Positions 47,528 through 59,007 of a DNA stretch of 64,000 nt are shown piece by piece (position 1 is the first letter of the stretch; every line of letters starts with the position of its first letter). The stretch is from Sulfurimonas sp. C5 (GTDB taxonomy: Bacteria > Campylobacterota > Campylobacteria > Campylobacterales > Sulfurimonadaceae), in contig NZ_JARXNQ010000001.1 of the NCBI RefSeq assembly GCF_029872055.1, positions 558,001 through 622,000 of the forward strand. Reading direction: 5' to 3'. The notes below the pieces were generated by a model that made no database searches, was not told where the DNA came from, and saw nothing but the letters and a program-made list of their open reading frames with translations. A program made the translations under genes and the position numbers.

Positions 47528-49306
47528 TTATACCTCGATCTCGATTGTCTGATTGTTTTGAATACTTTTATTGATCGCATCTTTAATCTTTTCAAAAAGC
47601 GTTTCGAGATTATCCGTTTCTCGTAATTCCGTTACACCGAAATAGTATTTGATCTCTTTATCAAGTGTTTGTATAAACTGTTCTACAATCTTCTGTGCCA
47701 ATCTATGTCCACCTCCTAAAGAGGTATTACTTGCCAAAACAATAAAATGCTTTTCTTCAATTTTTCCGAAGTAGTCATTCTGACGAATACTTTGTTGGAT
47801 AATTTCACCTGCTTTTTGTAAAAAATGTTTCTGTTTTTCTTCAGGAAGTGTAGAAAAGTCAAACTGCAAACCTATTACGGAAAGCTCCACCTTATAACGT
47901 TGTACTCTTGCTATCTCACGTACAAGAACCTCTTCAATAAAAATCCGATTATAAGCCTGAGAGATAGGATCTTTTTCCAGTACTTCAACTATATCTTTAG
48001 AAAGAGTGGAAAGCTTTTGATCTTTTGTCCCATCAAGCGACGAATCATTTTCATACAGTTTTGCATATCTCTTAATATGGAACATCAAAGTAAACGTATA
48101 AAGAAATGTGCTAATAAGGACATTACCTAAAACAATAGCGGTAAAAAGCTCATAATATACAAACTCTTTTGGCAAAGAGTGCACCATGATGATAGCCAGT
48201 GCACCTTTCATCCCTGAAAGTGTAAGTGCATATGTCCAATAAAACGGGAGTTTAGAACTAACAACTAAAGCACTTATACTACCAAAACGGATCAAAGTTG
48301 TAACAAGAAATACAATTAAAATCTCGTAGATATATTTATATAAAAGCGACAAATCTATTATATTTGCTATTACAACAAAAACAACCGCATTGGCAAAGAT
48401 TCCTAAAAACATCGCCTCTTTTTTATACTCGCGAAATTCATGTTTGGTGATAGCGGGTATATGTTTAAGTAGCTCAATAAAAGCATCATAGGTTTTTACT
48501 TTATCCGTAATCTCAAATGTTTGGGGATGCAAGCGACTCTCACACTGAACCAAGATTTTAAAGGTTAACACTGAAACTACAATCGATAAAATTCCTGCAA
48601 TATGGAAATGTTCAGCCAATAAAAAAGAACTTATAACAATAAGATAGATAATTAAAAACTGATCAAAAGGGTTACGCAGCATTTTAAGTGCAAAAAAACC
48701 GAAAAAGGCACTTGCCATACCTATAAAACTTGAAAGAAATAAAACTTTTAAGACAGTAACATTAACAGAAAGGACATCAACTGCCCCACCTTGTAAAAGT
48801 GGTAAGGCTATAAAATAGTAAATAATTAAAGCGGTAACGTCGTTAAACAGAGATTCCGATTCAGCATAGATCTTTAAACGCTGCGGCAACGTAAATCTCG
48901 ACATAATGGCACTTACCGTAATGGCATCTGTAGCCATTAACATTGTGTATAGGGCTAGAAGCATTCCTATAGTAAAACCATATTCAGGTAACAAATACGG
49001 TGTTACAAAAACGGCTAGAGCTATAGAGGCAATAACTGCAACTACCGCAAGGTAAAATATCTCTTTTGCATAATTTTTCAACTCTTTAATAGATATATTT
49101 AAAATATCTGGAAGTAAAATAACAGGAAGCATCAAGTAAAGAACCTCATTAAATTCTTGCTTACTGATGGAAAATAGATGAGGAAAATAGATGGAAAGTA
49201 CAAACGCATAAAGGATGGTTGCTAAAGTTGCGGGAACCTTCGTTTTCTCTTCAGTCAAACGTGAAAGCAATATAATCAATAATAATATTGTGATCAATAA
49301 AAGCAT
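47528..49306 (-). CDS. CPA1-type Na+/H+ antiporter with C-terminal degenerate GGDEF domain
   Basis: 592 residues. Residues 1-410 hold about 11-12 membrane helices with CPA1 antiporter motifs ATDAITVSAI (124-133) and ESLFNDVTALI (Asn155-Asp156, ion-binding site). Residues 446-592 are a GGDEF-family fold: DPISQAYNRIFIEEVL start, then RQND (508-511), a five-residue spacer and EEKHF (517-521) exactly where GG(D/E)EF should be. The catalytic loop is lost and the first metal Asp is Gln481, so cyclase activity is not expected, but the RxxD inhibitory-site motif that binds c-di-GMP is kept. Cytoplasmic c-di-GMP or GTP may therefore gate ion exchange (inference). Confidence 0.88.
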   Translation of the reverse strand: MLLLITILLLIILLSRLTEEKTKVPATLATILYAFVLSIYFPHLFSISKQEFNEVLYLMLPVILLPDILNISIKELKNYAKEIFYLAVVAVIASIALAVFVTPYLLPEYGFTIGMLLALYTMLMATDAITVSAIMSRFTLPQRLKIYAESESLFNDVTALIIYYFIALPLLQGGAVDVLSVNVTVLKVLFLSSFIGMASAFFGFFALKMLRNPFDQFLIIYLIVISSFLLAEHFHIAGILSIVVSVLTFKILVQCESRLHPQTFEITDKVKTYDAFIELLKHIPAITKHEFREYKKEAMFLGIFANAVVFVVIANIIDLSLLYKYIYEILIVFLVTTLIRFGSISALVVSSKLPFYWTYALTLSGMKGALAIIMVHSLPKEFVYYELFTAIVLGNVLISTFLYTFTLMFHIKRYAKLYENDSSLDGTKDQKLSTLSKDIVEVLEKDPISQAYNRIFIEEVLVREIARVQRYKVELSVIGLQFDFSTLPEEKQKHFLQKAGEIIQQSIRQNDYFGKIEEKHFIVLASNTSLGGGHRLAQKIVEQFIQTLDKEIKYYFGVTELRETDNLETLFEKIKDAINKSIQNNQTIEIEV

Positions 49307-52119: not shown

Positions 52120-53544
52120 TTATACAATATTCTTTAGTAATTCCGGAAAATTTAAGACTTTTAAAGAGATTTTAAACAGCTCACGTTTTGAAACAGGCTT
52201 TTTAAGATGTCCAACCACTCTTGCACCTTGTTCACTAATATGTGCATCTTTGACATTATGATTTGTCAAGGTAACAACAGGTGCATCACTTATTTTTGAG
52301 ATCACCTTTGAGAGTGCATTATCATCGCTCGTTAAGACATCTATATCAATTAAGATCATATCATACTTAGCTCTTTTAAGTTCATCTATTGCATCTCTTG
52401 GAATATCATAATGTGTAACACGGACATGACTCTCTAAAAAAGATTCTACAATAGTATCTACAGCTTCTGCATCTTTGTCAATCACCATCAATGATGCACC
52501 TTCAGGACGAATCTGTGCAAAATTAATATTCAAATCATGAAATTCATTTTCGGCACTTGGCAATACTATTTCTATATCTGCAAGAGAAAGAATAAAAGTA
52601 GCACCTTTACCGTACTCACTATAAAAAGTAAGATCACCGTTCATCAATTTTGCTATTTTTTTATTTAATGCAAGGCCCAAACCGTCTGATTCAAACATTT
52701 CAAATAATTTAGATTGATCTTCTTTTTTTATTCCAATTCCACTGTCTTCCACAATCACCTGCAAGTTAATCGTGTTATGGGCAATATTGCTTCCATTAGG
52801 TTTTACAAAAATATTTACAGCTCCCTTGGTTGTTGCTTTAATACTGTTGCTTATGAGGTTGTCGACAATTAATTTGACTTTATTTGCATCAAATATCAAA
52901 GATTCCGGTAAGCTTTTATCTATGTCAATCGTTAGTTCCAAACCTTTTTTCTTAGCACTGTTTTTGTACTCATCTGTAATAGTATTAAATAAAAACTGTA
53001 GTTCAACTGCACTCTCTTGAATATTGTAACTTCCTGCATCAATTTTTGAGAGTTCCATCATACTCTCAATTAACTCCATTAACTGATGACTCGAAGTTAA
53101 AATATCCCGTGCATGAGAGTTTAATTTTTCATTTTGCAGGTCTTTTGCCAAAATTGTTGCGTATGCTATAATAGTTTTCAAGGGAGTTTTAAGGTCCTCT
53201 TTCACATTAGACAAAAATTCATACTTAATTTTTACAGCTTCTTCTGCAACATTTTTAGCATCTACAACTTTATCTTTTTGTCTTTGAACTTCATTTTCCA
53301 ACTGTTCTATTTTTTTAATCTGCTCAGAGATCAAACTTGTCTGCATCCCTGCATAAGATTTTGGCTCATGTTCTGCATGATGTACTCTGCCCTGATTCTC
53401 TTGGAGTCGTTCAAGCTCTTTTTTTAACTTTGCGATCTGATTGTCTTTTTTTGATGCACTCGACAAAAACACTAAAAAACTTACGCCTATAAAAACAATG
53501 AAAACAACAAGCATAACGACTAAAGGGAGGTCAAACTGTATCAA
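52120..53544 (-). CDS. Hybrid sensor kinase-like protein lacking the phospho-acceptor histidine
   Basis: 474 residues. One membrane helix (about 8-28) precedes a long coiled coil (33-105). The dimerisation helix reads NVKEDLKTPL, in which the invariant His of SHELRTP is Glu116. The ATPase domain looks intact: N box with Asn229 and Asn233, G1 DSGIG (267-271), G2 GLGLAL. Residues 350-474 are a receiver domain with candidate Asp400 and Lys449. No sensor domain is seen. It may bind ATP and act as a conformational or scaffold partner rather than autophosphorylate (inference). The start is TTG with GGGAG inside the end of the preceding gene, 1 base away. Confidence 0.85.
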   Translation of the reverse strand: MIQFDLPLVVMLVVFIVFIGVSFLVFLSSASKKDNQIAKLKKELERLQENQGRVHHAEHEPKSYAGMQTSLISEQIKKIEQLENEVQRQKDKVVDAKNVAEEAVKIKYEFLSNVKEDLKTPLKTIIAYATILAKDLQNEKLNSHARDILTSSHQLMELIESMMELSKIDAGSYNIQESAVELQFLFNTITDEYKNSAKKKGLELTIDIDKSLPESLIFDANKVKLIVDNLISNSIKATTKGAVNIFVKPNGSNIAHNTINLQVIVEDSGIGIKKEDQSKLFEMFESDGLGLALNKKIAKLMNGDLTFYSEYGKGATFILSLADIEIVLPSAENEFHDLNINFAQIRPEGASLMVIDKDAEAVDTIVESFLESHVRVTHYDIPRDAIDELKRAKYDMILIDIDVLTSDDNALSKVISKISDAPVVTLTNHNVKDAHISEQGARVVGHLKKPVSKRELFKISLKVLNFPELLKNIV

Positions 53545-53545
53545 T

Positions 53546-54568
53546 TTACTCTCCCTCGGCTAATTCTTGAAAAGTTTCCAAATGCTCTTCAAAAATATTT
53601 ACAAGTCTAGGGTCAAACTTTTTCCCTTTTTCCTCTTGAATATATGCGACAGCATCTTCAAATGACCATGCATCTTTATAAGCTTTTTTCTCTAAAAGGG
53701 CATCTAAAACACTTACAATAGCAACTATTCTTGCATAGATATGAATCTCTTCCCCTTTTAAACCTCTGGGATAACCAGTACCGTCAAAATTTTCATGATG
53801 TTCGTATGCAATAATCGCTGCAGCATTTATCAGTTTTTTACTTGAATTTTTCAAAATTCTCAATGCTAATTTTGGATGGTTTTTAATAACTGCGAATTCA
53901 TCATCTGTTAAATGTTCAGGTTTTTTGACAATAGAATCTTCAATAAATACTTTACCTATATCATAAAGAGGAGAAGCCAAATAAATCATTTTGATCTCTT
54001 CTTCATTTAAAGTACCTTCTAAGACAGCTAACTGCTTTGCAAAATCTGCTACACGTCTGATATGACTTATTGAATCAAGGTTACTGTCTTCAATCATAGC
54101 TGAAAGTATATACACCATCTCTTTTTGGGCATCTTCAGTTTCTGAGAGTAAAAGCTTGTTTTGCCAGTTAGAAATTTTTAACGATTTTTTATAATTGTAA
54201 AACTCTAAATGGTGTCGAACTTTTCTATATAATTCATGTTTTTGAATCGGATAACGTATATCATCTATACAGCCGCTTTGATACCCTTCATCCAGATTTT
54301 CAACATCATCTTGTTCAACTAAAAAAATAAGTGGGACTTCTTGCAGTAATGGAGTGTTTTTTATACTTTTACATAGTTGTATAGCGTCTGCATCTGACAT
54401 TCTTCTTGCTAAAAGGATCAGATCAAAACGCTTTGTTTTTAAAAGATCTATGGCATCTTGAGAGTTAAGAGCATAAGAAAGTCCATACCCTTCTTCTCTT
54501 AAAAGTTCAATGATCTTTTTGACGTTTTCCATGACGTCATCAATGATTAAAATCTCACTTCTTTCCAT
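53546..54568 (-). CDS. Degenerate receiver + HD-GYP protein
   Basis: 340 residues. The receiver domain (1-120) keeps the acidic pair Asp10-Asp11, but the phospho-acceptor Asp is Ala54 (ILLARRM) and the conserved Lys is Tyr106 (RYP). The HD-GYP domain (about 150-335) keeps His169, His231, HHEN (257-260) and GTGYP, yet the HD pair reads Tyr202-Asp203 (LYDIGK) and the later metal Asp is Ser286. Phosphorylation and c-di-GMP hydrolysis are therefore both doubtful. It is immediately upstream of the pseudo-kinase gene, and the two likely function together. It could be a c-di-GMP-binding or structural protein rather than an enzyme. Confidence 0.85.
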   Translation of the reverse strand: MERSEILIIDDVMENVKKIIELLREEGYGLSYALNSQDAIDLLKTKRFDLILLARRMSDADAIQLCKSIKNTPLLQEVPLIFLVEQDDVENLDEGYQSGCIDDIRYPIQKHELYRKVRHHLEFYNYKKSLKISNWQNKLLLSETEDAQKEMVYILSAMIEDSNLDSISHIRRVADFAKQLAVLEGTLNEEEIKMIYLASPLYDIGKVFIEDSIVKKPEHLTDDEFAVIKNHPKLALRILKNSSKKLINAAAIIAYEHHENFDGTGYPRGLKGEEIHIYARIVAIVSVLDALLEKKAYKDAWSFEDAVAYIQEEKGKKFDPRLVNIFEEHLETFQELAEGE

Positions 54569-54614
54569 AACTTTTCCACTCCCTTATTTGGGTGATTTAA
54601 AGTTATTATACCAT

Positions 54615-58274: not shown

Positions 58275-58703
58275 ATGTTAAATAGTATTGAAGAAGCAGC
58301 AATAAATTTCTGTATACATCAGATAGGTGAAGATCACAATGTTAAAGATGGAATAACAAAAAAGAGAACACTTATTGCTTATATAGACTTAGATGCTCTA
58401 GACGGGAAAAAATACAGAGCTTATATAGCCTCAGATGCAGGCTTTATGCAAAGAGTTTCAAAACTTTTCCTAGAAGAGGACGAAAGCGATGAAGAAACAC
58501 TTACAGATATGACTTTGGAAACTGCTAACTTAATTATCGGCAGTGCAAAAGTAATAGCTGAGGATAGAGCTGATTCTCCATATTCTATCAATACTCCATT
58601 TTTTGAAAAAATCGGAGAGTTTGATCTGGCATATGATGATGCAAAGACTATTCAGGTGGGAGAGGATGAGCTTACCATCGCGTTGAAGGATTTAGATGTC
58701 TAA
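58275..58703 (+). CDS. CheX-like chemotaxis phosphatase domain protein
   Basis: 142 residues. The segment LETANLIIGSAKVIAED carries the ExxN phosphatase motif of CheX/CheC-type proteins, and the rest is compatible with the CheX alpha/beta fold (AYIASDAGFMQRVSKLFL). Such proteins dephosphorylate CheY-P. The following fliN gene overlaps its stop by 8 bases, so it is coupled to the flagellar switch. GCGGGGAATA is a plausible ribosome site. Confidence 0.75.
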   Translation: MLNSIEEAAINFCIHQIGEDHNVKDGITKKRTLIAYIDLDALDGKKYRAYIASDAGFMQRVSKLFLEEDESDEETLTDMTLETANLIIGSAKVIAEDRADSPYSINTPFFEKIGEFDLAYDDAKTIQVGEDELTIALKDLDV

Positions 58704-59007
58704 CAAAGTTTTCAACCCAAAAAATGACCTAGCATGGATGGACTACTCCGGTATTCTTGACATGGAAGTAGAGTTTATTGCCGAACTCGGAGAAACAGAT
58801 ATTACTCTTAGAGATATCCTGAAACTTGAAAAAGGTTCTATTATTGACCTGAAAAAGCCTGCAGGTGAAAGTGTCGAGGCTTATGTAAACGGTCGTATTT
58901 TGGGTAAAGGTGAGGTTATGGTATATGAGAAAAACCTCGCTATTCGTATCAATGAAGTTTTAGACTCTTCTGCAGTTTTATACTATCTTTCAAAAGAGAA
59001 ACTATGA
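58696..59007 (+). CDS. fliN: Flagellar motor switch protein FliN
   Basis: 103 residues, the SpoA/C-ring domain of FliN. Recognisable segments are MEVEFIAELGETDITLRDILKLEKGSIIDL, VNGRILGKGEVMVYEKNLAIRI and INEVL. FliN multimerises with FliM in the cytoplasmic C ring and sets rotation direction and export. Its start overlaps the cheX-like gene and its stop overlaps the next ATG. Confidence 0.95.
   Translation: MSNKVFNPKNDLAWMDYSGILDMEVEFIAELGETDITLRDILKLEKGSIIDLKKPAGESVEAYVNGRILGKGEVMVYEKNLAIRINEVLDSSAVLYYLSKEKL

Follow-up and report, generated by a model that had tools for sequence, protein, structure and literature searches.

A Sulfurimonas kinase and its receiver–HD-GYP partner may form a two-component pair kept after the loss of its chemistry

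Can a two-component system whose two proteins have both lost their catalytic residues still be a working unit of the cell, or is it on its way out of the genome? A locus of Sulfurimonas sp. C5 raises this question: a histidine kinase that lacks the phospho-accepting His is encoded next to a receiver–HD-GYP protein that lacks the receiver Asp. We analysed this locus in a 64,000-nucleotide stretch of the genome (contig NZ_JARXNQ010000001.1, positions 558,001–622,000; hereafter the window, in whose own numbering coordinates are given). Both open frames lie on the minus strand, as do the residues discussed below, and are separated by 1 base, confirming the placement in the initial annotation, which was made from this sequence alone. 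The pseudo-histidine kinase gene occupies 52120–53544 (474 aa, TTG start) and the partner gene, which encodes a pseudo-receiver joined to a degenerate HD-GYP domain, 53546–54568 (340 aa, ATG start). The four genes uvrA, partner, kinase and pyrophosphatase all run in the same direction, with successive gaps of 46, 1 and 27 bases; in two sister species (G077 and G089) the kinase–partner gap is 2 bases and the kinase likewise starts with TTG. An extended −10-like box directly upstream of the partner gene (TGGTATAAT, 54605–54613, minus strand), recognized by consensus match only, has a counterpart, TGTTATAAT, upstream of two canonical orthologues; a promoter scan of the region around TGGTATAAT gave a signal at background.

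Two further features of the neighbourhood deserve mention. A gene at 47528–49306 (minus strand) encodes a Na+/H+ exchanger that carries a GGDEF domain at its C terminus; the signature of this domain is EEKHF (EEGHF in the two sister species), so that it looks degenerate as well. Among the loci read, only the three species that have the degenerate pair carry the fusion here. On the plus strand, 58275–59007 encodes a CheX-like protein of 142 aa, which Pfam matches only weakly and below cut-off, and after it a conserved protein of 103 aa; both genes stay near uvrA and a TauE-like gene across the genus.

Pfam searches, orthologue alignment, a structure model and fold matches divide the kinase into an N-terminal membrane helix, a coil, a DHp (HisKA) domain, a CA (HATPase_c) domain without an ATP lid and a receiver, with no C-terminal extension. 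HisKA, HATPase_c and Response_reg all exceed their curated Pfam cut-offs, so the domains of an active HisKA hybrid histidine kinase are all found, and the phospho-accepting His of its H box is absent. That position is Glu116 (GAG, 53197–53199); aligned orthologues have Glu in G077, Asp in G089 and His in 17 canonical species. The ATP lid is deleted, leaving only E-S-D (52684–52692) between the F box and GLGL, 3 residues compared with 11–14 in canonical orthologues. The ATP-binding boxes had been described as intact, which is true of the N, G1, F and G2 box residues, including DSGIGI and GLGL, but not of the lid; since nucleotide binding is uncertain without it, the ATP-sensing scaffold first proposed is not supported in that form. 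A stretch of about 100 residues that follows the receiver in canonical orthologues is also gone. It looks like a helical domain and gave no convincing Pfam match; an HPt domain was considered and set aside, as canonical orthologues have no Pfam match to one and inspection by eye showed no conserved His in this stretch, either in them or in the paralogues.

The receiver of the kinase retains Asp400 (52345–52347), which had been put forward as the one canonical acceptor left. The residue is conserved in every His-less kinase, but its acid pocket is damaged: the second residue of the acid pair is Lys357 in the window and Lys or Ser across its clade, compared with Asp or Glu in most canonical orthologues. 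For this reason an outside donor may phosphorylate Asp400, but the possibility is weakened. Two kinases of the family (loci L078 and L042, species G075 and G216) have Asn at this position, and that of G075 keeps its His, a pattern of loss opposite to that of the window kinase. The structure model of the kinase (pLDDT 80.8) matches the folds of GacS, RetS and DivL; only domain-level Foldseek matches were used, whole-protein TM-scores being low because the domain arrangement differs.

The partner was assigned from Pfam, the orthologue alignment and its nearest solved structure, PmGH (4mcw), an active HD-GYP phosphodiesterase of Persephonella marina; its Response_reg and HD_5/HD matches exceed curated cut-offs. 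The receiver is a pseudo-receiver, with a domain match (E = 1.6e-15) and with the phospho-Asp and other catalytic residues missing: the Asp position is Ala54 (GCA, 54407–54409; Ala in all three clade species), the Lys position is Tyr106 (54251–54253; Thr and Ala in the two sister species) and the conserved Thr position is Val. The HD-GYP fold and its motif are present (HD_5, E = 2e-33; 4mcw, E = 9e-45; G265-Y266-P267), and the metal-ligand set of a c-di-GMP phosphodiesterase is incomplete. Three PmGH equivalents, and only these, are replaced in all three clade species: the HD His (H221) by Tyr202 (53963–53965; Tyr also in a more distant species, G121), the metal-ligand Asp (D305) by Ser286 (53711–53713) and the guanine-contacting Arg (R314) by Lys295 (53684–53686). 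The equivalents of H189, D222, K225, H250, H276, H277, the GYP motif, D308 and K317 are kept; in window numbering the retained residues include His169, Asp203, His231, His257, His258, Lys298 and the GYP Tyr. The position of E185 is Asp in the window and Glu in the sister species, and that of D183 is Ser, which is uninformative because canonical relatives have Ser there too. In PmGH, mutation of the base-contacting residues (R314A and K317A) caused no substantial drop in activity (PMC4159591); the change of Arg314 to Lys could weaken guanine binding. The structure model of the partner (pLDDT 75.7; unreliable at the GYP loop, residues 261–269, where pLDDT is under 50) matches PmGH, PA4781 and the c-di-GMP-bound HD-GYP domain of DvhD.

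Searches outside the locus defined the reach of this variant. A scan of the genome's contigs with the partner returned distant HD-GYP proteins only; the same genome holds a paralogous canonical HD-GYP response regulator (L002, 1477–2535) and a paralogous canonical hybrid kinase (G000:C1, about 11.8–13.3 kb). A DNA-level scan of 399 genomes of the order for Y-D-I-G-K-V/I matched 38 genomes, from which 30 loci were read; among these, the motif lies in an HD-GYP protein in the window's clade of three only, and the remaining loci encode PNPase or unrelated proteins or have no long open reading frame. A wider YD-type HD-GYP family in the order was rejected, the 30 loci read being mostly PNPase and chance hits.

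The history of the locus was read from 135 species genomes of the genus. G077 and G089 carry the pair with corresponding losses (70–72% identity for the partner and 74–75% for the kinase), and in their partners the receiver Asp is replaced by Ala, the HD His by Tyr and the metal Asp by Ser. The alignment thus bore out the substitutions first listed for the window (Glu116, Ala54, Tyr106, Tyr202 and Ser286) and answered whether they are conserved, the corresponding positions being non-canonical in both species, which goes beyond chance. The pair is canonical in 17 species, defined as those with a complete kinase H box: these have RHE[IV]R[TS]P in the kinase and the receiver Asp, TKP or AKP, HD and the metal Asp in the partner. 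A truncated eighteenth, G134, was left out and is canonical at its readable positions. A DHH-family pyrophosphatase gene adjoins the kinase gene in every locus read except that of G075, and uvrA flanks the other side in most, lying farther away or off the stretch in several (for example, G210, G101, G208 and G186). Orthology is established by this common position next to the pyrophosphatase gene, in most cases with uvrA on the other side, and canonical operons (for example, G001, G039 and G187) correspond to the window pair by both synteny and sequence while retaining, unlike it, the His, the receiver Asp and Lys, the HD motif and the metal Asp. As nearly all 17 canonical pairs stand beside the same pyrophosphatase gene, the degenerate state is derived.

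Other states of the locus also survive. In six species the kinase stands beside the same pyrophosphatase gene with no partner at the locus, and its His position is Thr (G053, G169 and G188), Ile (G165), Tyr (G154) or Glu (G149). G121 has Glu for the kinase His and Tyr for the HD His of its partner and retains the receiver Asp; the other degenerate positions of its partner (E185 to Asn, D308 to Glu and R314 to Ser) differ from those of the window clade, which indicates a separate route to degeneracy and a parallel, partial case. The canonical orthologues, the six kinase-only species and the lost C-terminal domain had not been recognized in the initial annotation, which to that extent was incomplete. 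Wherever the kinase has lost its His the partner is lost or degenerate (10/10 species), and wherever the His is retained the partner is canonical (17/17); phylogenetically, these counts represent only between one and three independent contrasts, so small a number of events that no significance test of the association is possible.

How often the His was lost was addressed with two trees. The kinase tree supports the window clade and the group of G053 at 100/100 each and the pair of G154 and G149 at 84/78; G121 groups with canonical species, both there (89/93) and in the partner tree (95/87). This kinase tree does not reject a single clade of His-less kinases (p = 0.145 for ten kinases and 0.32 for nine). 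A tree of six neighbouring genes, which is independent of the trait, has a branch with full support that separates G154, G149 and G121 from both the window clade and the G053 group, and it rejects a clade of the nine (p = 0.0002). A single origin is thereby rejected for these nine and at least two independent losses follow; two to four are compatible with the data. The shortening of the ATP lid, seen in both the window clade and the G053 group, may have happened just once.

Both genes are kept under purifying selection. Within the window clade, pairwise NG86 dN/dS is 0.073–0.087 for the kinase and 0.040–0.132 for the partner, inside the range of canonical pairs (0.05–0.25), these being rough values at a clade dS of 0.8–2.4, near saturation in some pairs. 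Identity within the clade is 0.88 for DHp, 0.85 for CA and 0.83 for the receiver of the kinase. In the partner it is 0.87 for the HD domain (0.77–0.89 in canonical clades) and 0.68 for the receiver (0.83–0.95 in canonical clades), indicating that the pseudo-receiver lost constraint and the HD domain did not. The initial annotation had tied canonical orthologues to strain-specific decay; such orthologues exist, but the loss is not confined to a strain, and with three species sharing it at low dN/dS strain-specific decay is ruled out. Its broader proposal of a conserved non-catalytic module is upheld by the losses in three species, the purifying selection and the joint loss in both genes.

These observations allow us to propose, with somewhat more confidence than doubt, that the locus is a converted two-component pair, a canonical operon that lost its chemistry while both proteins were retained under purifying selection. 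The ancestral operon, whose canonical form survives in related species of the genus, would have encoded a hybrid histidine kinase and a receiver–HD-GYP phosphodiesterase; the window's lineage would have lost the kinase chemistry and the phospho-acceptance of the partner, and probably c-di-GMP hydrolysis also. The pair would then probably signal by binding rather than by catalysis. Its HD-GYP pocket may still bind c-di-GMP without cleaving it, a role in keeping with the residues it retains and with the constraint seen on the HD domain; the ligand itself is very likely present, given 51 GGDEF matches in the genome. The membrane-anchored kinase shell would serve as a docking dimer, like DivL and RetS, and pass on its state by protein contact, through the DHp bundle or the receiver, instead of by phosphate. 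By analogy, the most likely arrangement is a pseudokinase of the DivL/RetS type paired with a c-di-GMP receptor of the DvhD type.

The systems invoked here are precedents and not evidence of membership. DivL of Caulobacter, which has Tyr for the His, shows no kinase or phosphatase activity and yet signals (PMC4211667), and resembles the window kinase in fold (4q20) and as a HisKA/HATPase_c protein kept by selection without its phospho-His. DivL, a cell-cycle protein, contains PAS domains and reads phosphorylated DivK; the window kinase has no PAS match in Pfam and Glu rather than Tyr at the His position, which places it outside the DivL family, and it differs further in its deleted ATP lid, its fused receiver and an adjacent partner without a phospho-Asp. 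In Pseudomonas aeruginosa, RetS does not autophosphorylate and yet controls GacS (PMC5992135); it too is a hybrid kinase with receivers and is among the top fold matches (6dk7, 6dk8 and 7n0e). It keeps the His and the HExxT motif, unlike the window kinase with its Glu, whose N terminus is a single helix and whose partner is an HD-GYP protein. For the partner, a parallel is DvhD of Desulfovibrio vulgaris (fold match 9rbz), which binds c-di-GMP without metal or hydrolysis and has SQ as its HD motif (PMC13090378). DvhD has also lost the HH pair, which the window partner keeps alongside its YD, and, as a membrane receptor, combines periplasmic, PAS and HD-GYP domains, whereas the window's HD-GYP domain is fused to a pseudo-receiver. 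Bacterial pseudo-receivers, like that of the partner, have the receiver fold without the phospho-Asp and Lys; only 2 of 20 reviewed atypical regulators are not orphans, and how pseudo-receivers switch is described as unsolved (PMC12632262). The window pseudo-receiver, unlike these mostly orphan proteins, adjoins a kinase that itself lacks the His.

The main rival to the converted pair is a RetS-like adaptor, to which we give roughly one chance in five: the His-less kinase would pair with an active kinase, dephosphorylate it or drain phosphate from it onto Asp400, with the canonical hybrid kinase that is its paralogue in the genome as a candidate target and the degenerate HD-GYP protein as an accessory. 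The kinase regions of GacS and RetS are among the best fold-search matches, the window kinase retains D117xxT120 together with Asp400, and a paralogous kinase occurs in all three clade species, the copy of the window's genome lying near the canonical HD-GYP protein of L002; but T120 is Ser in both sister species, the Asp400 pocket is damaged, and several partner-less species, for example G053 with its complete genome, have no close kinase paralogue at E = 1e-50, which weakens that paralogue as a general target.

Less probable still, and in our judgement unlikely, is slow decay, with the function gone and the genes disappearing, the partner being on its way to the complete absence seen in G053 and related species. 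That related lineages lost the partner altogether, that its receiver is relaxed and that the kinase has shed its C-terminal domain and ATP lid speak for decay; set against this, the frames are intact in three species despite a dS of 0.8–2.4, at a dN/dS of 0.04–0.13, the HD, DHp and CA domains match those of canonical pairs in conservation, and several lineages still carry His-less kinases. That the HD-GYP protein is still an enzyme, a weak or altered phosphodiesterase (acting on pGpG or another nucleotide, for example) with a remodelled metal site switched by contact, is improbable even though 6 of 8 PmGH metal-ligand positions are kept or conservatively replaced and PmGH D305A left some activity, for none of the three species retains the HD His, and PmGH with the H221A change had essentially no activity (PMC4159591).

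Counting against the converted-pair reading, the six species that keep a His-less kinase with no partner at the locus mean that the retained role of the kinase is not solely to serve the HD-GYP protein. They argue for a separate function of the kinase shell itself, in agreement with a RetS-like or DivL-like adaptor. A more specific and more tentative form of the converted-pair reading, which we hold as possible although the odds are against it, is a phosphate-free unit with reversed flow: the dead HD-GYP protein, when bound to c-di-GMP, would set the state of the dead kinase, which would act by contact; such units would have arisen at least twice in the genus by joint loss, the kinase shell later standing alone in some lineages.

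Pseudokinases such as DivL, pseudo-receivers and degenerate HD-GYP receptors are each already known singly; the distinctive point here is the joint loss of chemistry from the two proteins of a cognate pair. A single genus still contains the locus in canonical, half-converted, fully converted and partner-less form, and this series offers natural material for asking what a two-component pair does without phosphate.
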